A stretch of DNA of 37,693 bases, taken from positions 1-37,693 of the forward strand of contig CAIYZV010000013.1 in assembly GCA_903930765.1 (NCBI GenBank), written 5' to 3'. Under the pieces are notes generated by a model that was given only the letters and a program-made list of their open reading frames with translations, had not been told where the DNA came from and did no database searches. Positions 2,878 through 26,512 of the stretch are shown here, in pieces. Numbering within the stretch: position 1 is the first letter of the stretch; each line of letters begins with the position of its first letter. Position numbers and translations under genes: made by a program. Origin of the DNA: an uncultured Pirellula sp. (lineage in GTDB: Bacteria; Planctomycetota; Planctomycetia; Pirellulales; Pirellulaceae).

Positions 2878-2953
2878 AAAAGCACAGAGCAAAACGACCC
2901 TGTGATCGTACTCGTCCAACTCGACCGGGCGTGGCGATTTTGGACTGGCAATT

Positions 2954-5581
2954 CTATTCGACCTTTTGGGTTTCGATGGCCCGCAACAGGGTTTGTCTCA
3001 AGGTGTACAGTCGCGTTGGTTCGCTGACTTTCTTTCCGTCGACATCGGTCACATAGAAAACGTCGACCACTTGGTCGAGATGCGTACTGACTTTGGCGAT
3101 TTGCAAGTCCAACTGCAGGTCGAACAAGGTTTTTGAAATATCGTACAGCAAGCCGGTGCGGTCATACGCAAAGACAGTGATGATGGTAAAGTCGTCCGAG
3201 GTGCTGTTGTCGAATCGAATCTGGGTGGGTTGGGTTCGAGCGGCGGAGGCTTCGACTGTGGATTTGGTTTTCCAAACGCGGCGGAACGACGGCGGGGCTG
3301 TTTCGGTTGCCAGAATGGAATCCACGATCGTTTTGCAAACTTCTGCGATGCGATAGGGTGGCGATGATCCACCGTAGTCTGGGTCGTCGACGACAAACCT
3401 GTCCCAAGCGAATGGGCCTGGCTGGGTGTGGATTTCCGCCGATAGGATGCTGAGAGCTTGGCTGGTCAACGCGCCGGTGACGCGATGAAAAATGCCCGAC
3501 GCGCGGTCCGGGTGCACAGCCACCACGTACTCGGTCGCATTGCGGGCAGGGATGTAGTGCCCCCAGGCTTGTGCTGGTTGCTCCGACGAGAGGCGTTTGA
3601 TCCTGCGCAGCTCTTCGAACAGATCCTTCGGTTTGACTTGGGCGAGGTAGGTCGCTGGGATTGCAGCGATTTGCTCAGCCCACCATGGATCGTCCCGTTC
3701 GTGAGACGTTCGCTGGGCGAGCAACGTCGTCCGCAACGCGGCATGGGTGCTGGATTCTTTGTCCGGGTTGTTGCCAGAGGTGAGTTGTGTTTCGGTTGCG
3801 TCGTAGAGCTGTTGGATCAGGTTGAGTTTCCAGTCGTTGAGTGCGCCGGGTCCGACGGCGGCGAGATCGGCGCAGGATAACAAGGTCAACAGTTGCAGAC
3901 GTTCGAGGCTACCGACTTGTTGGGCGAATCGGACGATGGTGGAGCTTTGGGTCAAATCAAATCGGAACGCGGCGTGGGTCATCAGCAGGTGTTGATGGAC
4001 CAGAAAGACAATGAGTTCGCGATCGGCATCGGAGAGTTTGAGCATCCTCGCCGTTTCCTCAGCGATCACTTGACCGACTTCGCTGTGATCCTCGATGAAG
4101 CCTTTTCCTAAGTCGTGAAGGAGGAGCGTCAAGTGGAGGAGCATTTTGTTCTTGAGGCCCCGGTAGAGCTTGCCCAAAAAATCATCCCGCTTGATGAACT
4201 CTTCAGCGCATTCGACCGAGCGGATGCAGTGCGCATCGACCGTGTACTTGTGGTACTCATTGAACTGCAACAAGCAGCGGGCGTGGCGCATGGCGGGGAT
4301 GATTTGCTCGAGCACTCTCAGTTCGTGCAGTCGCCGCAGGATCTCACCCAATCGGCCTGGTTTGCTGATCAGATCCAGGAAGCGGTCGATGGTTTCGAAT
4401 CCCATTTGCCCGCCGACACGTCGCAACATTCCTTGGCGGATGGTCCGCCAGGTACGGTGCTCAATGCGTCGGTTGAAGCGATTGGAGATTTGCATCAACT
4501 CCAGAACCTTGGCTGGGTCGGATTGCAATTGCGAGAGTCCCTTGCGAGTCGACCAGACCTCCTTGAATCCAAGCCTTAGGTTTTTGCCGACAGGGATGCA
4601 TAGAAACTGAAGCAAAAAGCCGAAGGGGGATAGCCGTGAACGCGCCATGCCGACGAAGTTTGCCGAGCTGTATCGGACTTCGCTGGTCCGCTCAAAAAAC
4701 TGTTGCATGAACTCTTCGACGGGGAGGACGCCATCGGTGCCTTGGAACCCAAGCCACCTCGCTAATTCCACTTGTTTGCTTCTGTCCAGGGAGTCCTGGG
4801 CGCGGCCCGAGGTGAAATGAAGCTGGTTACGGAGATGGAGCAGGTACTGGTATCCGTCTCGGATGGCCGTAAAGTCCTCGGGAGCGAGCAGTCCCATATC
4901 GACCAATTGCTCAGGGCTCTTTTCACCGAAGCAAACGAAACCTATCCAGCGAACGATCTGCACATCGCGCAGACACCCTCGAGATCGTTTGACGTTGGGG
5001 TGGAGCAGGAACTCCGTCTCGCCATATTTTTGCCTCTCGGCAATGCGTTCCTTTTCGATCATCGCGGAGAGGGATCGCCAACGTCGTTTGGCTCCGGTCC
5101 GGATCGAGTTTTCGAAATGGTCGTAAAGGGACTGGGACCCGTGCAGCAATCGCATTTCGACGAGCGCCGTCAATGCGGTTGCATCGGACCAAGCAATCTG
5201 CCGACACTGGTACGGTGTACGAACGGAGAAGCCCAGCTGGAATCCCGCATCGACAATCATCTGGGACACTTTGCGAGCCAGAAGAGAAACGTCGTTCTCT
5301 TTGACTCCGCGGTGCAGCAGCATCAAGTCGATATCGGAAAACGGCGCTAGGTCTCTGCGTCCGTAGCCACCCAGTGCAATCAATGAATAGGCAGACGGAT
5401 CGGCCTCGGAGCCTTCGCTCGCGGCTTCGATCAGCCGACGAATAATCGCGTCGACAGAATCAGCCCAAGCGAGACAAACCTGAGGCCCCGTGACACCTGA
5501 GGCATGGAGATTTGAAGCCTTCAGACGCGCTTCCGCAAGTTGCGTACGCGCTTCAATGACCTGGGGATGGAGAGAGGACAA
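2954..5581 (-). CDS. glnD: [Protein-PII] uridylyltransferase / uridylyl-removing enzyme
   Basis: An 875-residue protein with the full GlnD layout. The nucleotidyltransferase site is GGYGRRDLAP at residues 71-80 followed by SDIDLML with its two catalytic Asp (83 and 85). A GlnD-type helical linker follows, then an HD hydrolase domain with HDLGKG at about 489. Two C-terminal ACT domains begin at about 684 (VVAVHPDRASGIF) and 797 (ITVFAYDRTGLLYDI). The enzyme adds UMP to P-II when glutamine is low and removes it when glutamine is high. It lies 26 bases downstream of glnB on the same strand, so sensor and modifying enzyme are almost surely co-expressed. The start is TTG at 5581; no better ATG exists before the conserved region and the ribosome site is weak. 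Confidence 0.95.
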   Translation of the reverse strand: MSSLHPQVIEARTQLAEARLKASNLHASGVTGPQVCLAWADSVDAIIRRLIEAASEGSEADPSAYSLIALGGYGRRDLAPFSDIDLMLLHRGVKENDVSLLARKVSQMIVDAGFQLGFSVRTPYQCRQIAWSDATALTALVEMRLLHGSQSLYDHFENSIRTGAKRRWRSLSAMIEKERIAERQKYGETEFLLHPNVKRSRGCLRDVQIVRWIGFVCFGEKSPEQLVDMGLLAPEDFTAIRDGYQYLLHLRNQLHFTSGRAQDSLDRSKQVELARWLGFQGTDGVLPVEEFMQQFFERTSEVRYSSANFVGMARSRLSPFGFLLQFLCIPVGKNLRLGFKEVWSTRKGLSQLQSDPAKVLELMQISNRFNRRIEHRTWRTIRQGMLRRVGGQMGFETIDRFLDLISKPGRLGEILRRLHELRVLEQIIPAMRHARCLLQFNEYHKYTVDAHCIRSVECAEEFIKRDDFLGKLYRGLKNKMLLHLTLLLHDLGKGFIEDHSEVGQVIAEETARMLKLSDADRELIVFLVHQHLLMTHAAFRFDLTQSSTIVRFAQQVGSLERLQLLTLLSCADLAAVGPGALNDWKLNLIQQLYDATETQLTSGNNPDKESSTHAALRTTLLAQRTSHERDDPWWAEQIAAIPATYLAQVKPKDLFEELRRIKRLSSEQPAQAWGHYIPARNATEYVVAVHPDRASGIFHRVTGALTSQALSILSAEIHTQPGPFAWDRFVVDDPDYGGSSPPYRIAEVCKTIVDSILATETAPPSFRRVWKTKSTVEASAARTQPTQIRFDNSTSDDFTIITVFAYDRTGLLYDISKTLFDLQLDLQIAKVSTHLDQVVDVFYVTDVDGKKVSEPTRLYTLRQTLLRAIETQKVE

Positions 5582-15332: not shown

Positions 15333-15766
15333 GGAAAAACCCGCAAAAGATCTGAGAATATCCAGGCGCCACGTCCATGCGACCGTCATCGAGCCGACAT
15401 CGACCCTTCTCCCTGGAAACTTGAGGAGCGCGATGGAAGTTCTGTTTTTTCGATTTGTGCCGTTTGTGCGGGAATCGCCTAAAACTCTTTAGAAAACGAT
15501 GTGGCCACTCAAAGCCGCACAGTCCTTGGAAAACCGTTGAGAACGAGCAAATTCCGCGTCTTCGGCCTGCTGATATACCGACGAGAGGTCATCGCCTCAA
15601 ATCGGTTCGCTCCAACGAAAAAGTGGTCTGCTGCGGTCCGCAATCATAAGATTGAAGGATGCTTCGACGAGGACTCGCTCCAAACTTTGTCTTCGCCTGA
15701 ATAATTCCGCAGCATCCCCACCCCCCGATTCCATTGTCGTGTCCCGTGTCCGTGGAGATCCATAGT
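15333..15766. other. Divergent intergenic gap
   Basis: About 434 bases between the proline-rich gene (minus) and the DUF1573 gene (plus), so both promoters should be here. Short open frames exist but lack family resemblance. No tandem duplication or clear hairpin was seen. Confidence 0.45.
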
Positions 15767-16840
15767 ATGAGATCTATTGCAATCGCGGCGCTTCTGTGCG
15801 CCGCGTGGGCTCCTGCCGTTTTCGGCAACCAGTTCAATCAGATGTTTCGGTCTACAAGCCATGATTTTGGCACCGTAGCAAAGGCCGCGAAAACCGAATA
15901 TCGGTTCCTGTTCGAGAATCCGTATGGCCAACCCATTCACGTCCGTAGCGTCCGCACGTCCTGCGGGTGCACCACGCCTATCATCGAAACGGAAACCATT
16001 GCTCCCGGTGGTCAAGGGAGTATCTTGGCCCGGTTCAACACCGGAACCCATTCCGGGGCTCGCGCTGCAACAGTGACCGTCACGTTTGATAAACCATCGT
16101 TCGGCGAAGTCCAATTGCATGTCAAGGGATACATCCGAACCGACGTTGTGTTCCAACCGGGCGAAGCATCGTTTGGCACGGTCTCCCAAGGATCCGGCAA
16201 GTCCATCCAAATCGTGGTCGACTACGCTGGCAAGCCAACTTGGCAAATCACCGGTGTTCGCTGCGATGAGAAATGCATCACCGTCGAACGTGAAGAGAAA
16301 ATTCGACAAAATGGTCGCATCCAGTACGCGATGACGGTAAGTATCCATGGTGACGCTCCCGCCGGCCCTCTTCAAAGCGAGATCGTTCTGCAAACCAATG
16401 ACCGCAATCTGACCACGGTTCCAATCCGGTTGACCGCAAACGTTATTCCCGAAGTTTCGATCACTCCAAATCTCCTATCGCTCGGCGATATCAACCGCGA
16501 GGAATCGATCAAGCAGTTGCTGATCCTCAAAGCCCAGCAACCCTTCCGAGTTCTCGGGGTCGAAAGCGAAGCCTTTGCAATCGAGATCAACAACCGTAAT
16601 GAAGAGGCTAAGACGCTGCACACGTTGCCCCTCTCGCTCCGAGCCATCGGGAACACCGCGTCCGGCGAGGCCCGAGGTAAGATCAAGGTGCTGACTGATA
16701 TCGAAGACAAACCAAGCCTTGAGATCGACGTTGTTTACCGACTAAAAGCGGAGCTCCCCGCTAGCACAGCGCTGACACCGGGATCGTCGGAATCAATCGA
16801 TTCGGAAATCGATTCGTTCTACAATCCTCTCCGCGAGTAA
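15767..16840 (+). CDS. Exported DUF1573-domain protein
   Basis: A protein of about 357 residues. A clear signal peptide (MRSIAIAALLCAAWAPAVFG) is followed by a DUF1573 Ig-like beta domain: SHDFGTVAKAAKTEYRFLF, then the signature V-R-T-S-C-G-C-T-T-P and a G-x-x-x-x-I-L-A-R-F segment. Two further beta-rich units follow (FGTVSQGSGKSIQ from about residue 127; LLSLGDINREESIKQ around 240). The family is common in planctomycetes and Bacteroidetes and is of unknown role, likely periplasmic. The ATG at 15767 has ggag about 11 bases upstream and gives the best signal peptide; the frame is open back to 15734. It ends before a strong terminator. Confidence 0.88.
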   Translation: MRSIAIAALLCAAWAPAVFGNQFNQMFRSTSHDFGTVAKAAKTEYRFLFENPYGQPIHVRSVRTSCGCTTPIIETETIAPGGQGSILARFNTGTHSGARAATVTVTFDKPSFGEVQLHVKGYIRTDVVFQPGEASFGTVSQGSGKSIQIVVDYAGKPTWQITGVRCDEKCITVEREEKIRQNGRIQYAMTVSIHGDAPAGPLQSEIVLQTNDRNLTTVPIRLTANVIPEVSITPNLLSLGDINREESIKQLLILKAQQPFRVLGVESEAFAIEINNRNEEAKTLHTLPLSLRAIGNTASGEARGKIKVLTDIEDKPSLEIDVVYRLKAELPASTALTPGSSESIDSEIDSFYNPLRE

Positions 16841-17041: not shown

Positions 17042-20000
17042 CTAAATGCGTCGACGTAGTTTTCCGTTCCCCCGCTGGCCGGAACCGTCAACCCAGTTGG
17101 CGATTGTCGAGTCGTCATCGCTCCAACCGTACGAGGCGAACACCGAATCCGCGGCGGTGCTGGATACAGGGGGTGTCGATGCTGCGATTGCTGAAGGTGC
17201 AATTCCTTCCCCTTCCCCGCCACCTCCAGAGGCATTCGAGTTCAGCTTGTTTACCACAAAGAGGACATCGAGTGGGGTCGAGAATCCATCGCCATCCACG
17301 TCAACGAACGGAGGTACATCGGGTGAGTTCAATGGCAACTGGCCACTTCCTGGGTGAGCGTTGATGTAGTTCACGATCGCCAGTGGGTCCAGCGGCGTGA
17401 TTAGCGTGTCTCCGTCCACATCCAAGTTGTTCACTTGATTCTGGAATGCGGAATAGAACGTAATAACCACGTTGCCCAAGTTACTCGTCACCCCGTTTTC
17501 GTCCTTCACATCGTATTGCAACACCAATTGCGTGGATGTAGCTACGCTATGGATGTACTCGATGCTCCCGTCCGGTCGAACCGTCGCCGTCCCGACCGCT
17601 GGCGGTGTTAGGATTCGCACGGTTGACGGGTCTAGAGGTGAACTGACCCCATTGTCGTTCGCCAACACCTTCATCGTAATCGGACGCCCATACGAGGTCC
17701 GGTAGTTGTCGCTAACTGCGACGGGTGGCAATTCCGAAAGGTTGTTGATGGTTACGATAAACGCCTTCTCATAGGTTAATCCGCCTGCATCCGTAACACG
17801 CACCCTCACTGAGTAACTGTCGCGAAGCTCATAGTTGAACTTAACATTGGTCTCAAGTCGGTTGCCGTTGATACGGAATTGGCTGTTGTCAAAACCGCCT
17901 GAACCGGAAACAAGCGCGTAACTTGCGGTATCCGGCGAGTCGACATCTTCGGCCGAGAAGAGGCCAACCAAAGATCCAATCGGCTTGTTTTCGTCGACTG
18001 CTTGGTTGCTCAATCGAATGTTTGTGGGACGCTCGTTCACGTTGGCGATAGCGATAACGATTTGCGTTGCAAACGTCGCACCGGCCTTGTCGGTGACCAC
18101 GATCGACTCGGTATACGATGTCGCCGACTCATAATCGAAAGACTGGAGAGCCACGAGGCTGTTTCCGACGATCGCAAAACGGGAACTAGGGGACGTAGTT
18201 GCACCCGATGCAAAAGTGAACACGAAGGTATCCCCTGCGTCTTGGTCAACGGCGTTGAGAGAGCCGACCACGCTGTTGGCGGGTGAGTTCTCTGGGATGA
18301 ACGAGGGCGTTAATGTCACACTGGTCGGCGAATCATTCACATCGGTAACCTGGATGATGAACGGTGCGATAACCGAGTGGTTGGCCGAGTCAATTCCTTC
18401 GATGCGAACCCGGTACGAGGACTTGGTTTCGTAGTCCCACGGCGTCTTCGCGTAGAGCTTGTCGCTGACGATAACAAACTGCAAATTGTCATCGGCTCCG
18501 GCTCCTGGAACGAGCCGATAGAAGACGGTTTCGCTCTGGTCAGGATCATTGGTGGAGAGGATTCCCACCAGCAGGTTCGAGGAGTTTTCCGTCATCACGG
18601 TGTTGCTCAATTGGATGGAGCTCGCCGCCTCGTTCACATCGTCGACCAGAACGGTAAAGCTCTTGTCTGTGAACGTGCCCGCCACATCGGTTGCGCGGAT
18701 GAGAACCGTGTAGCTTGAACGGGACTCATAATTGAAGATCGCGTTCGAAAGCAGCTGTGTTCCGGAGACTTGGAACATCGCGTTATCGACAGCACCCGAT
18801 ACCAACGAGAAGGATACTTGTCCCGCCAAATCGGGATCGATGGCTAACAGAGTCCCGATAGGACTTCCGGGAGGATAGCCTTCCGGAATGGTGTTCCCGA
18901 CCAACTTAAGATCGATCGGAGCTTCTTCGACGTTATCGACGTTGACTGCGATCTCTCGATCAATCGATAACCCACCCAAGTCCGTGGACCGTACCATGAT
19001 CGCGAAGCTCGATTGTTCTTCGAAATTGAAGGGACGCGTCGTTCGGAGTTGGTTTCCGTTGATCGAGAACGCGAGATGATCGAAGCTGCCTTGTTGCGGG
19101 ACTATTTGGTAGCTAAAGGAATCCCCGGCATCGACATCTGACGTGCCGAGTAGACCGACCAAGGAGTTCGCAGGTTGATTCTCGAGGATACTGCTGGGAC
19201 TGAGCACCACGTTGCTCGGAACTTCGTTCTCGTTGAGAACAGAGATTACGAATGCGCGTTCGATACGTGCTCCCTGGGAGTCGGTCGATGCAATGCGAAC
19301 CGAGTAGGATTTCTTAGTTTCGAAATCGAAAACAGCATTCGTTTTGAGTGAGCTGTTAACGATCGAGAACGCACTGTTATCCGTATCGCCAGATCCGCTG
19401 ACGAACGCATAAGTATGGGTATCCCCCGCGTCCTCGTCGGTCGTTGTCAAACTCCCTACGGTCGTTCCGATGGGGCGGTTTTCGAGGACAGTTGCCCCGG
19501 CCAACGTCAGTTGCGATGGAGTATCATTCCGATTCAAGACCGCAATCACAAAGACATCCTCTCGCGTCAAGCCGCCACTATCGCGCGTGCGGACTCGAAT
19601 TGAAAGGCTTGGCGTGGATTCGAAGTTAAGCGATTGGGACGCTTGCAAGGAGCTTCCAACGATCGAAAACAGGCCGTTGTTGGTGCTTCCGGTGCCACTC
19701 ACCAGGCTGTACGTCCAGCTCTCTCCCGCATCCGGGTCGGACGTTGAGAACGTACCCACAGTTGTTCCTACCGAACTGTTTTCCGGAATCGACGCTGGGG
19801 TCAGCGAGTTTGAGATCGGTGTTTCGTTCACGTTGATGACCGTTACGACGAACGCGGACTCCGTCGATAGGCCTTGGGCATCGGTTGAGCGGATTCGGAT
19901 TTGATAGGAGTTCTTCGATTCAAAATCGAATACCTGTGACGTCTTCAGTGCATTGCCGGTAATCGTAAAGGCACTATTGTCATCGCTTCCCGTACCGCTT

Positions 20001-23000
20001 ACGAAGGAATAGGTAAACGTATCGCCGACATCGACGTCCGTGCTTGAAAGCGTGCCCACCGTGGTTCCAATGACCGAATTTTCGGAAATGGTCAGTCCGC
20101 TTAGACCGATCGACGTTGGCGCTTCATTCACATCGACAACGGTGATGACAAACGCTTTTTCGAAAGCCAATCCGCCAGCATCGACCGTTCTGATCCGAAC
20201 CTGCTGGAATTTGGTCTGTTCGAAATTGATGGCGGCGTTCGAGACGAGTTGGTTGCCGTTGATTAGCCAGTTCGCATTATTGGCATCGCCAGCTCCGGTC
20301 ACCAAACTGTAGGTGAACGTATCGAAGTCGTCCGCATCAGTGGTGCTCAAAGCTCCCAAAACAGTTCCGAGGGGCACGTTTTCCTGGATGGAGTTCGATG
20401 ACAGGATAATGTTGGTTGGTGGGTCATTCACGTTGATGACTAAGATCACCAATGGGATCTCCGTACTCAGCCCACCGGCATCGGTGGTTCGAACGCGGAT
20501 GCTGTAGGACGATTTGACGTCGAAATCGAACACCGCAGACGATCGGACTTGCGAGCCGACAATCATGAAACTAGCGTTGTCCGAATCGCCATCACCGGAA
20601 ACCAGCGAGTACGAGAACGTGTCCGCGTTGTCAGGATCGACGGTCGAAAGTGTTCCGACGGTCGTACCAATCGCCATTCCCTCAAAAATCGTATTCGGCG
20701 AAAGCGAAACGAGGACAGGCTGCTCATTGACATTGAGAATCGAGATGACGAACGACTTCTCGAGAGAGAGCCCAAATTGGTCGCTGACACGGGCTCGAAC
20801 AGAATAGGTTGATTTGCTCTCGAAATTGACGGCGGTGTTGGTGAAAAGTTTGTCACCAACGAGCGTAAAGCTGCCATTATCATCGGAACCGGTCCCAGCA
20901 ACGAAGTCGTAGGAAAGTACAGAGCCGGCATCCGGGTCGGAACCTACCAGCGTGCCAACTACGGTCCCAATCGGAGAGTTTTCTGAGATTTGTCCCCCAA
21001 CGAGTGTCAAGCTATTTGGTGCTTCGTTGACATCGACAATTGTGATCACTTGAACCGACTCGACGAAAGCACCGATTCGGTCAGTGGCGCGGATTCGAAC
21101 GGTGTAGCTGCTCTTCGTTTCGAAGTTGAAGGATTGAAAAGACAGGAGTTGATCGCCGTTGATGGTGAACAAGGCGTTGTCCGTGCTCCCTGCACCTGGT
21201 TCGAGCGAGTAAGTATGCGTGTCCCCGAAATCCGGATCATCGTTGGACAGAACACCGACGATTGTCCCGATTGGCTGGTTTTCAGCGATGGATGAGTTGG
21301 ACAGATTTACTACGGTAGGTGCTTCGTTCACATTCGTGACACTCACGGCAAAGACCTCTTCGGTGAACAGACCACCTAAATCGGTGCTTCGGACACGGAT
21401 GCTGAGCGCGTTCTTCTGTTCGAAGTTTAGCGAGCCAATCAGAACGATTTGATTCCCGTTGACAGCGAATACTCCGTTGTCTGAGTCGCCGCTGCCATTG
21501 ACGAGGCTGTATGCGAATACGGTATCGGTGAGCGAATCCGTATCGGTCGTCGAAAGCGTTCCTAGAACCGTGTTGGCGGGTGAGTTTTCGGGGATGGTGC
21601 GTTTCGACAAACGGATCGTCAGAGGCACCTCATTCACGTTCGTCACGTTGATCGTGAACGGCTTCTCAATCAACAAACCACCGGAATCCCTCGAAAGTAC
21701 CCGAACACTGAACACGCTTCGAGCTTCGAAATTGAATACGTTGTTGGTGAGGAGCTGATTTCCGCTGACCGTAAAGAGCGTGTTATCCGCATCGCCCGTT
21801 CCTGGGACCAACGAATAGGTAAAGGTATCGGTATCGTCGGCATCGGTGGTGGTGAATGAACCGACCATGGTTCCCAACGGGCTATTTTCGGCAACCGATG
21901 GATTGGACAAGGAGATGTTTGTTGGGGGATCGTTGATGTTCGAGACATGGACAGCAACGGCTCGTTCGACCGAGAGTCCACCCAAGTCGGTCGTGCGAAT
22001 TCGCACGGAGTAATCCCGTTTGACGTCATAGTCAAATACCGCGAGTGTCCTCAGTTCGTCGCCGACGATCGAGAAGAGGGCGTTGTCGTCTGCCCCTGCG
22101 CCATTTGCGAACTCGTATCGGAACACGTTGTCATTATCCAAATCTTTCGTGGTCAGTTTCCCAACCGTTGTTCCGATCGGTTGCGATTCGGGAACAGTAT
22201 CCGGAGTGACCGAGATATCCGTGGGGGATTCGTTGACATTGAGTACCGAGATGACCAACGCAGATTCGAAGGTCAAGCCTTTGCTATCGGTGGCTCGAAC
22301 TCGGATCTTCTGAGTATTTTGCGACTCGAAATCAAACACGTCTGCGGTGGAGAGTGAGGTACCGACCAGCGTGAACTTCGCATTATCATCACCGCCGATG
22401 CCTGGGACCAAACTGAGCGTATAGCTGTCACCCGCATCGACATCTAGCGAGGACAAGCTGCCCACGAATGTATCGACTGGCATGTTTTCGAGAACACGAT
22501 CATCCGTGATCGAAATGGAGATCGGTGCTTCATTCACATCCGTGACGGTAATGACAAACGGCTGTTCAGTGAATAATCCAGCACGGTCTGTTGCTCGCAC
22601 TCGCAGCAAGTACTGCGATCGGGCTTCGAAGTTGAAGGTCACCGCCGATTGCAGTTTGTCGCCGACAATCTTAAACATGATGTTGTCGCTATCGCCCGAT
22701 CCGGAAACCAGCGAATACGCCACGGAGTCACCGGCGTCGGGATCATTGTTGGAGAGAGTACCGATTTCGTAACCGGGCAATTCGTTCTCTGGCAATATGT
22801 TGTTTGAGAGAGTGATTACAGTTGCCCCCTCGTTCATATCGATGGCTGTGACCGAGAGCACTTTTTCCACCCACAATCCGCCAGCGTCGGTGCTTCGTAC
22901 GCGAATACTAAAGACGTTTTGGGTTTCGAAGTCGATAGGCCCGTTCACGACCAATTTATCGCCCGCGATAGCAAAGGTTCCGTTATCTGCAGAACCAGCA

Positions 23001-26000
23001 CCCGAAACGAGACTGTAAGTGAAAACAAAATCGGTCAACACATCGGTGTCCGTTGTGTTTAAAGTCCCAACCACCGCACCGTTCGGAGAGTTCTCCAGCA
23101 CGGAAGACGGATTTAATGCAATATCCAAAGGTACTTCGTTTACATTGAGCACGGATATCGTGAAGACTTGGTCCAAGAAGAGCCCACCTTCATCGGTGGT
23201 ACGAACTTGGATCGACAACGATTGATCTTGTTCGTAATTAAAGGACTCATTCGTCCATAGTTCGTCACCGATGATTTGGAACCGAGTGTTATCAGGATTC
23301 GCCGGGGTGTTGGAGAAGCTATAGATGAACGAGTCACCGCGATTTGGATCCGTGGATGACAATTTACCTACTAAGGTTGAAGCGGGCGAGTTTTCGACGA
23401 CCGAAGATTTTGAAAGGGACAGACGGGTCGGAGCAACATTAGGCAGCCTAGCTCCATATAGTCGGTCATAGATGGGACTTCCATCGGTTGTGATCGTATG
23501 CGTTCCGTTGGATGGGACTGTGTACTGGTAAGCACCTTGAAGTTGTAGAACGGCATTTGAGGTGCCGGCCGGCATATCGACCAATGCGTAACCGTTAGCA
23601 TCGGAGACTGCACCCAATTCCCGAGAGATTTGCATGCTCCAATCGAGGATCACACCGGTATCGGAGGCGACAGTATCTTCTACTTTCAATTGCCATAGTC
23701 CAGTGAGCGTTTTGTAATTCATCGCGGCGAGCGGCTGGGCCGGAATAAACGTACCGGTGAATGGGGGGGCACCTGAACCGATTGCTACCGTCGCGGAATC
23801 GTCAAAAACCGTGTTAGTGAAGTTGTCTCCATCAAAGCCGACACCACCTGCGAGCAGCACCTCTGTTCCGTCGGGAGCGATGAGCGAGATGTTGAGATCG
23901 GAGTCCCACGTGTGCGTAATATTGACTCGCACATTGATATCGGTGATCACGCCACCAGACGTTACTAGGATTGAGGAATAAGCGGTACCAGCATCGATGA
24001 TGTCTACTGGGCCGGTGCTATTCCAGGTAACTACATCGGAGCCTGTGGAAACGATAAAACCTTGAAGAGGTAAATCGAGGCCATCGATGGCACCATCCCC
24101 CTTGAGATCCTCAAAAACCCTTGAGTACAACCGATCAGCCAGAGAGTAACCAAAGTTGTTTCCGACCGAGTAGTCAGTCCCACCAGCCAAGGTAATAGTA
24201 TATAAATTGGTAGCAGGTGATGTTTGGATCCAACCTGGGAGAACCGCTCCTATGGTGTACGTGCCGGCAGGTAGGGACGCAAACGTGTATCCGCCTTGCG
24301 CATTAACAATCGCTTGCGTATCCCCCGGTGTATAGCTTCCACTGCTATCGCGGTCGATATACGCAAATGCCGTCGTGCCGATGCCACGTTCGAAGGATTC
24401 GTAAAGTCCGTCACCATCGTAATCCTCGAAAATAGTGCCGCCGATGGATGGGGCTGTCGACGTGCCTGTCAATCGCAGTTGGAAGTTGGGGGTATCCGGA
24501 TCATTGGATTGGATGGTCAACAGCTCGTTGTAGTTGCCAGGAGCCGCGGGTGAAAATCGAACCACAAAGGTTGTTGCTTCTCCGATCGCCAATTGGATTG
24601 GAGAGAAACCAACAACAGAAAATGGCGCCGCGACGTTCATGCTGGGAATGTCGAGAAGCTCCGTACCCTGATTGCGGATGCGCAGGGTCTTCTCAACGAA
24701 TTGCCCGCTGAGCACAGCACCCATCGGCAAAGTGGCTAAATCGGCAAATTCTTTGAGTTCATCGACAATGGAAATTTCTGCAGAACCAATCCCCTTGACC
24801 AAGGTCCTTGCATTGATTCTTCCAAAACCATACTGAAGATTTTTGCCCGTGTTGATGTTGTAGGTCACGCCGCCGATCAGGTCCGTCGCATTTCGAATGA
24901 GCGACCTGAAATTACTCGGAGAAAGGGAAATCCCCTTGAGTTCGGCTTGGGCCAACGCCAAAGCCCCAATACCCGCCGCCAGAGGCGAAGCGGAGGAAGT
25001 GCCGCCGAAGCCAGTCGCTCCAGTTCCCGTGTAATCACCTGTGGCATAACCATCGGCGCCCGTGCGGTCCGTGGTATCGATCGCTAACGATCCACCATTG
25101 CTAGGAGAAACGATATCGAGGGCAGCACCATACTGGCTGTAGCTGGAACGGACATCGGAGTTCGTCGATGCGCCGATTGCGATAACACCAGGCGTAAACG
25201 CTGACTGTCCCGCTGGCTCTCCGAGAACGCCAGATCCATTGTTACCTGAGGAGAAAAAGTAAGTCGCTCCCAGCCCACCACGACCTTGCACGGTTCCGAC
25301 TGCGAGCGCCGCGTTCATGCTCGGAAAAGGCCCACCGCCACCCCAGGAATTATTCACGAGATCCCCGGCTCGCCACGTCGCACTTCCATCGGCTTTCATC
25401 CCCCCTGCGTATAGCAGTGCCGATGCGAAATCATCGAGTGCTCCCGTAGCCCCATCGTGAAAGACTTTGATCGATATCACAGGGGATTTGTAAGCAGCTC
25501 CTGCGACTCCAAGTCCGTTGTTACCCTTCGCTGCTGCAACCCCAGCGACAGACGTGCCGTGAGCATCACTACCTGTTGGCTCTGAGGCATTGTTACCTGT
25601 TACAAAGTTCCAACCAGTGACGTCGTCAGGCCAGCCATTATTGTCATTGTCGATCCCGTCCCCGGCGATTTCACCAGGGTTGTTCCATACGTTGAGGTCT
25701 GGGTGACCCGATTGAACGCCGTCATCAATCACCGCAATCACAATCGAACTGGATCCGCCTTGATTGATATCCCACGCTAAATCGACGTCCGCGTCCGCAT
25801 CCGCAACTCCACCACTTGCACCAAGGTTTCGCAAATGCCATTGGTTCCCGAATCTCGGGTCATTGGGAATGAAATGCTTCTCAAAGTTAACATAAAAATT
25901 AGGGTGTACCCACTCCGTCGATGCGTCCGAGAGAAGTCGGTTCGAAAGATCGATCGCGGCGCGTCCGCCGTTCTGCGCTAGTTTGCCAACGTACTGGTTC

Positions 26001-26512
26001 TGGGTTCCCAATACCCTTTGGAAAGATTCAAATCCCGAATGACGAGCAAAAAACTCCGAGGCATTCTCATTAGGCTTGAATCCCACGATGATCTCATCGA
26101 GGACCGACATGTCTGTACCGGATGCCATGTCTACATACACCGGACTAACGTCAATCACCCCAGCCAACGATGAAAGTTCTGCCAAATAAGCTGGGGTAAG
26201 CTCTGTTGAGGTTTGATAAACCACCGACTCGGTCCCCATGCCCCATAGTCGAGTAAGTCCTTCAGGTAGTGCAACTGTCGAGTTCGCGGTGGAAATGGCA
26301 ACTCGATTCAGACTCAATTGCAATCCAACGTTTCCTCGCCCACCCCAATAGAATGCATCAGCCCCCTTCACGACCGAGCTGTCATCAGGAGCATCGGGTG
26401 ATGCATCCCAATTCGGGTTGTTCCACACAACGTCACTTGCCAACATCGTTCGCAACTCGAGTCGCTCGATACGAAATGCACGACGCCCGAAACGCCCGCG
26501 GCTCTTTGCCAT
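17042..26512 (-). CDS. Giant S8 protease-cadherin-dockerin surface protein
   Basis: A 3156-residue exported protein. The leader RIERLELRTMLAS (about 14-26) is the planctomycete RxERLExRxxLA type. The subtilisin-family domain carries Asp263 (VIDDG), His318 (DAHGTS) and Ser506 (GGTSSASP), an intact triad. Then come a choice-of-anchor-D-like domain (about 580-685), an SdrD-B-like domain (about 687-780; FEDYDGDG), a P-type proprotein-convertase domain (about 846-965; THTWDSDLNISLIAPDG) and 19 cadherin-like repeats at 1027-2927. Each repeat is about 100 residues, runs from a xEN-P-xGT-VG start to a VNE end, and carries acidic, likely calcium-binding, motifs. An Ig-like domain (PVAVSDNY) and two dockerin-like calcium motifs (DVDGDTLITPLDP, DVDGDGFSTPLDV, about 3025-3095) follow, then a tail ending in KLRRRI. 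A role in adhesion or surface proteolysis is inferred. The ATG at 26512 has aagga about 9 bases upstream. Confidence 0.93.
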   Translation of the reverse strand: MAKSRGRFGRRAFRIERLELRTMLASDVVWNNPNWDASPDAPDDSSVVKGADAFYWGGRGNVGLQLSLNRVAISTANSTVALPEGLTRLWGMGTESVVYQTSTELTPAYLAELSSLAGVIDVSPVYVDMASGTDMSVLDEIIVGFKPNENASEFFARHSGFESFQRVLGTQNQYVGKLAQNGGRAAIDLSNRLLSDASTEWVHPNFYVNFEKHFIPNDPRFGNQWHLRNLGASGGVADADADVDLAWDINQGGSSSIVIAVIDDGVQSGHPDLNVWNNPGEIAGDGIDNDNNGWPDDVTGWNFVTGNNASEPTGSDAHGTSVAGVAAAKGNNGLGVAGAAYKSPVISIKVFHDGATGALDDFASALLYAGGMKADGSATWRAGDLVNNSWGGGGPFPSMNAALAVGTVQGRGGLGATYFFSSGNNGSGVLGEPAGQSAFTPGVIAIGASTNSDVRSSYSQYGAALDIVSPSNGGSLAIDTTDRTGADGYATGDYTGTGATGFGGTSSASPLAAGIGALALAQAELKGISLSPSNFRSLIRNATDLIGGVTYNINTGKNLQYGFGRINARTLVKGIGSAEISIVDELKEFADLATLPMGAVLSGQFVEKTLRIRNQGTELLDIPSMNVAAPFSVVGFSPIQLAIGEATTFVVRFSPAAPGNYNELLTIQSNDPDTPNFQLRLTGTSTAPSIGGTIFEDYDGDGLYESFERGIGTTAFAYIDRDSSGSYTPGDTQAIVNAQGGYTFASLPAGTYTIGAVLPGWIQTSPATNLYTITLAGGTDYSVGNNFGYSLADRLYSRVFEDLKGDGAIDGLDLPLQGFIVSTGSDVVTWNSTGPVDIIDAGTAYSSILVTSGGVITDINVRVNITHTWDSDLNISLIAPDGTEVLLAGGVGFDGDNFTNTVFDDSATVAIGSGAPPFTGTFIPAQPLAAMNYKTLTGLWQLKVEDTVASDTGVILDWSMQISRELGAVSDANGYALVDMPAGTSNAVLQLQGAYQYTVPSNGTHTITTDGSPIYDRLYGARLPNVAPTRLSLSKSSVVENSPASTLVGKLSSTDPNRGDSFIYSFSNTPANPDNTRFQIIGDELWTNESFNYEQDQSLSIQVRTTDEGGLFLDQVFTISVLNVNEVPLDIALNPSSVLENSPNGAVVGTLNTTDTDVLTDFVFTYSLVSGAGSADNGTFAIAGDKLVVNGPIDFETQNVFSIRVRSTDAGGLWVEKVLSVTAIDMNEGATVITLSNNILPENELPGYEIGTLSNNDPDAGDSVAYSLVSGSGDSDNIMFKIVGDKLQSAVTFNFEARSQYLLRVRATDRAGLFTEQPFVITVTDVNEAPISISITDDRVLENMPVDTFVGSLSSLDVDAGDSYTLSLVPGIGGDDNAKFTLVGTSLSTADVFDFESQNTQKIRVRATDSKGLTFESALVISVLNVNESPTDISVTPDTVPESQPIGTTVGKLTTKDLDNDNVFRYEFANGAGADDNALFSIVGDELRTLAVFDYDVKRDYSVRIRTTDLGGLSVERAVAVHVSNINDPPTNISLSNPSVAENSPLGTMVGSFTTTDADDTDTFTYSLVPGTGDADNTLFTVSGNQLLTNNVFNFEARSVFSVRVLSRDSGGLLIEKPFTINVTNVNEVPLTIRLSKRTIPENSPANTVLGTLSTTDTDSLTDTVFAYSLVNGSGDSDNGVFAVNGNQIVLIGSLNFEQKNALSIRVRSTDLGGLFTEEVFAVSVTNVNEAPTVVNLSNSSIAENQPIGTIVGVLSNDDPDFGDTHTYSLEPGAGSTDNALFTINGDQLLSFQSFNFETKSSYTVRIRATDRIGAFVESVQVITIVDVNEAPNSLTLVGGQISENSPIGTVVGTLVGSDPDAGSVLSYDFVAGTGSDDNGSFTLVGDKLFTNTAVNFESKSTYSVRARVSDQFGLSLEKSFVISILNVNEQPVLVSLSPNTIFEGMAIGTTVGTLSTVDPDNADTFSYSLVSGDGDSDNASFMIVGSQVRSSAVFDFDVKSSYSIRVRTTDAGGLSTEIPLVILVINVNDPPTNIILSSNSIQENVPLGTVLGALSTTDADDFDTFTYSLVTGAGDANNANWLINGNQLVSNAAINFEQTKFQQVRIRTVDAGGLAFEKAFVITVVDVNEAPTSIGLSGLTISENSVIGTTVGTLSSTDVDVGDTFTYSFVSGTGSDDNSAFTITGNALKTSQVFDFESKNSYQIRIRSTDAQGLSTESAFVVTVINVNETPISNSLTPASIPENSSVGTTVGTFSTSDPDAGESWTYSLVSGTGSTNNGLFSIVGSSLQASQSLNFESTPSLSIRVRTRDSGGLTREDVFVIAVLNRNDTPSQLTLAGATVLENRPIGTTVGSLTTTDEDAGDTHTYAFVSGSGDTDNSAFSIVNSSLKTNAVFDFETKKSYSVRIASTDSQGARIERAFVISVLNENEVPSNVVLSPSSILENQPANSLVGLLGTSDVDAGDSFSYQIVPQQGSFDHLAFSINGNQLRTTRPFNFEEQSSFAIMVRSTDLGGLSIDREIAVNVDNVEEAPIDLKLVGNTIPEGYPPGSPIGTLLAIDPDLAGQVSFSLVSGAVDNAMFQVSGTQLLSNAIFNYESRSSYTVLIRATDVAGTFTDKSFTVLVDDVNEAASSIQLSNTVMTENSSNLLVGILSTNDPDQSETVFYRLVPGAGADDNLQFVIVSDKLYAKTPWDYETKSSYRVRIEGIDSANHSVIAPFIIQVTDVNDSPTSVTLTPSFIPENSPANSVVGSLNAVDQDAGDTFVFTFASGATTSPSSRFAIVGNSLVALQSFDYESATSYTESIVVTDKAGATFATQIVIAIANVNERPTNIRLSNQAVDENKPIGSLVGLFSAEDVDSPDTASYALVSGSGGFDNSQFRINGNRLETNVKFNYELRDSYSVRVRVTDAGGLTYEKAFIVTINNLSELPPVAVSDNYRTSYGRPITMKVLANDNGVSSPLDPSTVRILTPPAVGTATVRPDGSIEYIHSVATSTQLVLQYDVKDENGVTSNLGNVVITFYSAFQNQVNNLDVDGDTLITPLDPLAIVNYINAHPGSGQLPLNSPDVPPFVDVDGDGFSTPLDVLFVVNKLNSNASGGGGEGEGIAPSAIAASTPPVSSTAADSVFASYGWSDDDSTIANWVDGSGQRGNGKLRRRI
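20123..21628 (-). repeat. Cadherin block B (repeats 7-11 of the giant protein)
   Basis: Residues 1629-2130, 502 residues (1506 bases), holding five cadherin-like repeats. They match repeats 2-6 one for one. Repeat 7, like repeat 2, is two residues longer than the 100-residue norm because of a TDTD-x-LTD insertion. Repeat 10, like 5, has the F/Y-DVK variant and ends in ND. Repeat 11, like 6, starts PPTNI and has TTDADD-x-DTFTYSLV. Confidence 0.85.
21629..23134 (-). repeat. Cadherin block A (repeats 2-6 of the giant protein)
   Basis: Residues 1127-1628, 502 residues (1506 bases), adjacent to and the same length as block B. Shared unit-specific features include RATDR-x-G-x-F in repeats 3 and 8, and DDN-x-x-FTLVG with an LNVNE end in 4 and 9. 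The order of unit types is conserved across both blocks. Confidence 0.85.

Follow-up and report, generated by a model that had tools for sequence, protein, structure and literature searches.

Domain order of the giant protein

The window, by which we mean the whole stretch of 37,693 nucleotides analysed, carries on its minus strand a single frame without internal stop codons that encodes a giant protein. The first-pass annotation had likewise read one frame of 3156 amino acids, without naming the strand. The gene and its features are as follows.

17042..26512, minus strand: whole gene, 3156 amino acids, ATG start, single frame without internal stop
26432..26485, minus strand: Arg-rich LExRxML N-terminal motif, residues 10-27 (alignment of relatives)
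25874..26332, minus strand: putative inhibitory prodomain, residues ~61-213 (upstream of the mature N-terminus expected from solved enzymes)
24803..25873, minus strand: S8 catalytic domain, residues 214-570, with D263, H318, N424 and S506 (Pfam and alignment)
24464..24733, minus strand: Ig domain of the HYDIN / choice-of-anchor-D type, residues 594-683 (Pfam, over cut-off)
24218..24448, minus strand: SdrD_B-like domain, residues 689-765 (Pfam, below cut-off)
23630..23944, minus strand: P-domain, residues 857-961 (Pfam)
17750..23452, minus strand: 19 cadherin-type units, residues 1021-2921 (Pfam and own-unit HMM)
17483..17728, minus strand: Big_9 Ig-like domain, residues 2929-3010 (Pfam)
17240..17422, minus strand: type I dockerin with both calcium loops, residues 3031-3091 (Pfam)
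17045..17239, minus strand: GEGEG linker and Arg-rich C-terminal tail, residues 3092-3156 (sequence inspection)

Comparison of the protein to Pfam shows a Peptidase_S8 match at residues 255-564 (E = 4.9e-31, 108.6 bits vs. a cut-off of 21.8), a P_proprotein match over the cut-off at 857-961 (E = 1.7e-11), a Cadherin match (E = 2e-124, 406.8 bits vs. 28.8) and a Dockerin_1 match at 3031-3091 that covers 55 of 57 positions (E = 1.1e-8, 35.6 bits vs. 22.9). The S8 and cadherin families, for which the first-pass annotation had suggested a domain search, are both found over their Pfam cut-offs; its P-type domain is present, and its triad (Asp263, His318, Ser506) lies at exactly the positions it gave. 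Its inventory of S8, P, cadherin and dockerin domains was correct but incomplete, as it lacked the HYDIN-type Ig domain (594-683; E = 3.2e-6, over the Pfam cut-off, with an NCBIfam match below that family's cut-off), the SdrD_B-like domain and the Big_9 domain (best stretch 2929-3010, E = 2.2e-10, over the cut-off). A calcium-binding dockerin is indeed present, but as a single type I domain, of which each of the earlier dockerin-like motifs forms one half.

The solved structures nearest to the giant are S8 enzymes, deseasin MCP-01 (2.3e-36) and mirolase (1.8e-31), whose catalytic domains align with it over residues 216-554 and 217-569. Both are secreted enzymes of a much smaller type, and we know of no protease of this type with a 19-unit cadherin stalk and a dockerin. 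Because the solved S8 enzymes align from residue 215-216 of the giant, removal of its prodomain is predicted near residues 213-215. The prodomain (~61-213) has no Pfam propeptide match, and the AlphaFold model of residues 1-1040, built on a four-sequence alignment, has a mean pLDDT of 35. In proprotein convertases (kexin/furin) the P-domain sits directly after the catalytic domain, whereas in the giant the Pfam matches of S8 and P-domain are separated by 292 residues that include the Ig and SdrD_B-like domains, so that the Pfam scan does not show the convertase layout. Upstream of the prodomain, the LExRxML motif has no Pfam or NCBIfam match at E 0.1; the N-terminus that contains it resembles, by eye, planctomycete extracellular N-termini, and ERLExR is kept in all 18 relatives whose N-terminus is present.

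With an HMM derived from the repeats of the protein itself, we identified 19 cadherin units with a mean spacing of 99.9 residues over residues 1021-2921, and the earlier count of 19 units and 1901 residues is thus exact; in autocorrelation, a lag of 100 was by far the best among lags 80-124. The units share 27-58% identity with each other (mean 41%). At nine columns that presumably correspond to cadherin calcium ligands, D, E or N occurs in 18-19 of the 19 units, including the Glu of ENxP (19/19), the two positions of DxD (19/19 and 18/19), the Asp of TD (19/19), the last residue of FxFE (E or D in 19/19) and the linker positions of NxNE (D, E or N in 18, 19 and 18 of 19). The best Foldseek matches of the C-terminal model, a weak one, are protocadherins (E = 1.7e-18), at a mean pLDDT of 54 and query TM-scores of 0.2-0.3. 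The ligand columns, together with the intact triad, support the earlier suggestion of a calcium-binding stalk that carries its own protease. Matches to the HigB toxin in two proteins of the family were dismissed as chance; the one inspected, at 24.6 bits vs. a cut-off of 27, sits inside a cadherin unit.

Distribution and conservation among relatives

We searched for orthologues of residues 1-1040 in 40 genomes (the window's own, 24 of the same genus and 15 others of the order); two further same-genus genomes, G141 and G142, lie outside this search. Of the 24 same-genus genomes, 17 carry a long orthologue, and G004 adds a fragment at the end of a contig. The remaining six (G006, G011, G014, G020, G021 and G023), some of which are incomplete, show no orthologue, and a full-length match is absent from the 15 other genomes of the order. 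Five loci were identified in named genome contigs; two belong to partial relatives and three to orthologues with identities of 98, 87 and 52%. From the isolate names of the matching genomes, we presume a lake habitat.

Since 17 of the 24 same-genus genomes carry a long orthologue, the giant is no fusion artefact, and errors of sequencing or assembly are a very improbable source of it, given that seven other genomes contain a complete 19-unit frame. The same seven frames speak against two genes joined by a frameshift, which the first-pass annotation had named as one case that would overturn its reading.

Further comparisons used 20 sequences from the 17 genomes, leaving out the fragment G004:C480. 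The catalytic D, H and S and the Asn of the GN motif (N424, oxyanion) are kept in all 20 in the alignment, including the paralogue L048, for which an over-strict motif search had suggested a loss of the triad that the alignment ruled out. Pfam was run on the window protein and 13 of the 20 relatives, the seven omitted being partial or truncated frames. The S8, cadherin, P and HYDIN-type Ig domains were each found in 14 of these 14 proteins, the dockerin in 13, Big_9 in 11 and the SdrD_B-like domain in 10.

The number of cadherin units in 14 complete proteins, the window's included, is 19 in eight and 16 in four (L050-L053), and the shortest arrays have 13 units (L038) and 5 units (the paralogue L048); the array length thus varies across the genus. 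The partial relative L055 has no cadherin unit in its sequenced part. Comparison of single units to those of the window protein shows that the best match lies at the same position for 19 of 19 units in L037, 16 of 19 in L040, 17 of 19 in L044 and 16 of 19 in L046, and in the seven other complete 19-unit proteins the units largely follow the order of the window protein, with identities near 55%. These same-position matches argue for an old array, inherited unit by unit and constant within a clade, and against recent slippage.

Full-length alignment of ten relatives beyond L036, L037 and L038, each to the window protein, gave identities of 60-68% for the S8 domain and of 28-59% for the prodomain, Ig, SdrD, P-domain, cadherin array and Big_9. 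The dockerin is 69-74% identical in five 19-unit relatives, above the S8 domain, and 48-56% identical in four 16-unit relatives, below it; over the five further carriers outside the 69-74% group (L036 and L037 left out) the range is 45-56%. The first 30 residues match or exceed the S8 domain in five relatives (67-70%), and in the N-terminal alignment S8 identity is 59-68% in 16 divergent relatives. By these identities, S8 and dockerin are the most conserved domains of the giant; that S8 is the single most conserved part is ruled out by the higher values of the dockerin in five relatives. The NG86 dN/dS ratio against L037 is lowest for S8 (0.023, vs. 0.031-0.151 for other parts), at dS values of 0.9-2.8, which are saturated. 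With L036, the closest relative, as reference, the ratios (0.096 for S8, about 1.0 for the P-domain and 0.7 for the tail) are noisy, resting on very few substitutions.

Of 14 relatives whose C-terminus is present, 12 carry a dockerin and an Arg-rich tail there, and two, the paralogues L048 and L049 of one genome, carry RTX-type sequence instead (L048 by Pfam HemolysinCabind, L049 by alignment), which points to an exchangeable C-terminal module in this family. The last 10 residues contain 4-5 Arg or Lys in 12 of the 12 dockerin-ended relatives, 2 in L048 and L049, and 0-4 in the products of eighteen neighbouring genes. The tail (3092-3156) is otherwise poorly conserved, at 26-40% identity in divergent relatives. 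In the window's own genome, a C-terminal dockerin is followed by a GEGE-type linker and tail in 10 of the 17 dockerin frames inspected (nine flagged by a script, plus L069, added from its visible linker) and not in the other seven. A GEGE(G/S) linker and short tail end both dockerin proteins (L056-L070) and the dockerin-less family A proteins described below (L080-L095). It is possible that this ending is a sorting or processing signal. As a genome-wide tag, GEGEG was rejected, its 14 pattern matches vs. 7 in a reversed control being too small a signal; of 13 distinct places with GEGEG, 5 lie in the tail at the C-terminus of a dockerin protein or a family A protein.

The neighbours of the giant look by eye like housekeeping genes. 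We compared 17 neighbours, as candidate operon or functional partners, to the loci of the 20 relatives. Only the two closest relatives, L036 and L037, share any of them, except that L038 and L054 give weak ABC-ATPase matches; the giant therefore appears to act independently of any constant operon partner. Among 15 loci compared, a different neighbourhood is common to L040-L044 and in part to L046. The neighbour at 15734-16840, likewise common only to the two closest relatives, looks by eye like the DUF1573/HYDIN type of Ig domain that also occurs inside the giant.

Proposed role and candidate dockerin partners

Building on the catalytic residues, calcium motifs, domain order, clade-wise unit number, conserved dockerin and exchangeable end read from the alignments, we propose with moderate confidence that the giant is a secreted, surface-held subtilisin-type protease, activated by loss of its prodomain and carried on a calcium-stiffened stalk. 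For its export route, activation, stiffness, retention and substrate we infer the following course. The protein would be exported by way of its planctomycete-type N-terminus. As in its homologues, the prodomain would then be removed autocatalytically near residues 213-215, and the N-terminal motif would be lost with it, so that attachment would have to come from the C-terminal side. The 19 units would form a stiff stalk whose free N-terminal end bears the protease; a cadherin unit spans ~4.5 nm, and at that figure the stalk would be roughly 85 nm long. Big_9, dockerin, GEGEG linker and Arg-rich tail would hold the giant to the surface or matrix, where its task would most likely be to digest extracellular protein, or to process surface proteins nearby, at a defined distance from the cell.

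The first-pass annotation had seen no cohesin-like protein nearby, and this stands: no neighbour is cohesin-like by eye, and PF00963 has no match at E 0.001 and none over the Pfam cut-off in the window's own genome, where the count of scaffoldin cohesins over the cut-off, which would mark a cellulosome, is 0. The genome-wide search for cohesin-like domains that it had proposed gave none over the cut-off but did give two divergent borderline candidates elsewhere in the genome. Such an absence is usual: among 117 genomes sampled from the order, 76 bear dockerins, and 60 of these lack any cohesin match at E 0.001 (cohesins occur in 18 genomes, both in 16). Dockerin matches number 5-53 per genome in 27 same-genus genomes. 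The model NF012209 was discarded as a signal in the own genome, where nothing exceeds its cut-off, because matches at E 1 also occur in 7 of 14 control genomes.

The own-genome borderline match to PF00963 (E = 0.00102, 21.3 bits vs. a cut-off of 24.1) lies in G000:C333 (L080), the own copy of a protein type of ~1580 amino acids. A profile built from the borderline cohesin-like domain of this type (A4) matches 27 of 27 same-genus genomes in two protein families, each of which occurs in 26 of 27 among the matches listed. We inspected the architecture of 16 frames of family A and 11 of family B. Family A (L080-L095) has a cyclophilin domain (two proteins scanned), one cohesin-like domain, Big_9 repeats and, near the C-terminus, a GEG-type linker in 14 of the 16 frames and EGEG in the other two; 5 of the 6 N-terminal regions examined contain, by eye, a thioredoxin-like region with CxxC, the exception being L082, of those examined the nearest to the window's genome. 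Family B (~1710 amino acids; L100-L109) has SdrD_B, GEVED, two cohesin-like domains and a C-terminal dockerin (three proteins scanned). The metzincin motif HExxHxxGxxH is present in 10 of its 11 frames, the eleventh being the window genome's partial copy, L058, which is ended by the contig end.

These families provide the evidence for a reading of the giant as a client of a non-cellulosomal cohesin-dockerin protease assembly, in which its dockerin would bind the family A and B domains. In favour of it are the borderline own-genome match, the near-universal presence of both families in the genus, the protease motif of family B and the good conservation of the giant's own dockerin. Moreover, when only the first-named match was counted for 21 such domains (7 of family A and 14 of family B), cohesin was the sole Pfam family matched by more than one of them (7/21, best 3.4e-5); in G021, the protein of family A meets the Pfam cohesin cut-off, and PF00963 over its cut-off marks the same stretch as A4 at G023:C24 and G043:C46. 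Of the 28 A4-positive genomes in the order sample, 27 have dockerins, vs. 76 of 117 overall (Fisher p = 2e-5, uncorrected for kinship and with some A4 matches falling in dockerin proteins). However, whole-protein scans at E 0.01 found no cohesin in two family A proteins (L082, L083) or in three of family B, and searches of PDB sequences with A4 and the profile A6 found none, although a control profile of six Pfam-grade planctomycete cohesins (A5) did so (best 9.9e-8). Profile-profile comparison to A5 gave probabilities of 38.7% over 22 columns for A4 and 8.7% over 26 columns for A6, and Pfam-grade cohesins occur in only 5 of the 27 same-genus genomes. The domains of families A and B thus appear related to each other, with a borderline identity as cohesins, and we consider it unlikely that the giant is such a client. 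Its extended form is also rather doubtful: here the giant would serve a genus-core extracellular assembly for protease action and protein processing, a cellulosome-like architecture rebuilt for proteins. Just as doubtful is the corresponding arrangement of parts, in which divergent cohesins, borne by a folding factor of the cyclophilin type and by a dockerin-ended metzincin-type protease, would gather the cell's dockerin proteins, protease-tipped rods with cadherin stalks among them.

The giant might also be a freely secreted digestive protease whose stalk and dockerin bind the substrate and not the producing cell. Its Pfam and NCBIfam matches include no cell-surface anchor family, and the nearest solved enzymes are secreted, both of which would fit; the long-kept unit number and conserved dockerin nevertheless suggest a structural role, as does the Arg-rich end kept in all dockerin-ended relatives, and on balance free secretion seems improbable. 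The first-pass annotation had offered self-release and attack on other cells as further uses. That one chain carries both protease and stalk is compatible with an adhesin that detaches the cell by cleaving its own stalk or anchor, but ~2400 residues lie between the protease and the C-terminal module, so the chain would have to loop back or the protease cut a neighbouring molecule, no release site was noticed, and the sole cleavage suggested by the anatomy is ordinary N-terminal prodomain removal; self-release is therefore very improbable, and for attack on other cells we found no evidence. The surface-held protease on its stalk remains our preferred reading.

Relation to known systems

A comparable assembly, the planctosome, has been proposed for the Nemodlikiaceae, freshwater planctomycetes, and is described there as non-cellulosomal, with dockerin, P-domains and extracellular peptidases (PMC6461901). 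The giant resembles it in joining a dockerin, a P-domain and a putative extracellular peptidase in a planctomycete of presumed freshwater habitat. It differs in that planctosome hosts belong to a different class, the Phycisphaerae, the peptidases are Zn enzymes (M12B, M14) whereas the giant is of the S8 family, and cohesin modules are reported where the giant's genome has only borderline ones (PMC6461901). Very long genes are common in the planctomycete phylum, and huge extracellular proteins with Dockerin_1, Big_9 and cadherin-like domains have been described, with Planctomycetota as the largest contributor; the portions of these papers dealing with giant proteins name no S8-P-cadherin-dockerin family (PMC5177795, PMC11573180). 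This architecture was not found in the open-licence literature searched. Each part of the giant is ordinary for the phylum, and most of the genus retains the complete combination.

Dockerins and giant surface proteins abound in planctomycetes. The present family offers a tractable case, with a conserved enzyme of testable activity, a long-kept stalk, an exchangeable dockerin and two candidate receptors. If these receptors bind, the planctosome idea would extend to another class, with a hint at the role of orphan planctomycete dockerins.

Other S8 giants of the genus share the protease with the present family but differ from it in having no cadherin unit by the own-unit HMM. L126-L129 form a second family, with frames of ~6.1 thousand amino acids and the S8 domain in mid-protein, and L133 has a frame of 3513 amino acids from base 3991 with an S8 domain, two P-domains, a dockerin, a GEGE linker and an Arg-rich tail. 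Because L127, L128 and L133 also carry dockerins near their ends, dockerin-bearing subtilases appear to be a theme in the genus. The contig G020:C1 holds several S8 giants, L133 among them.
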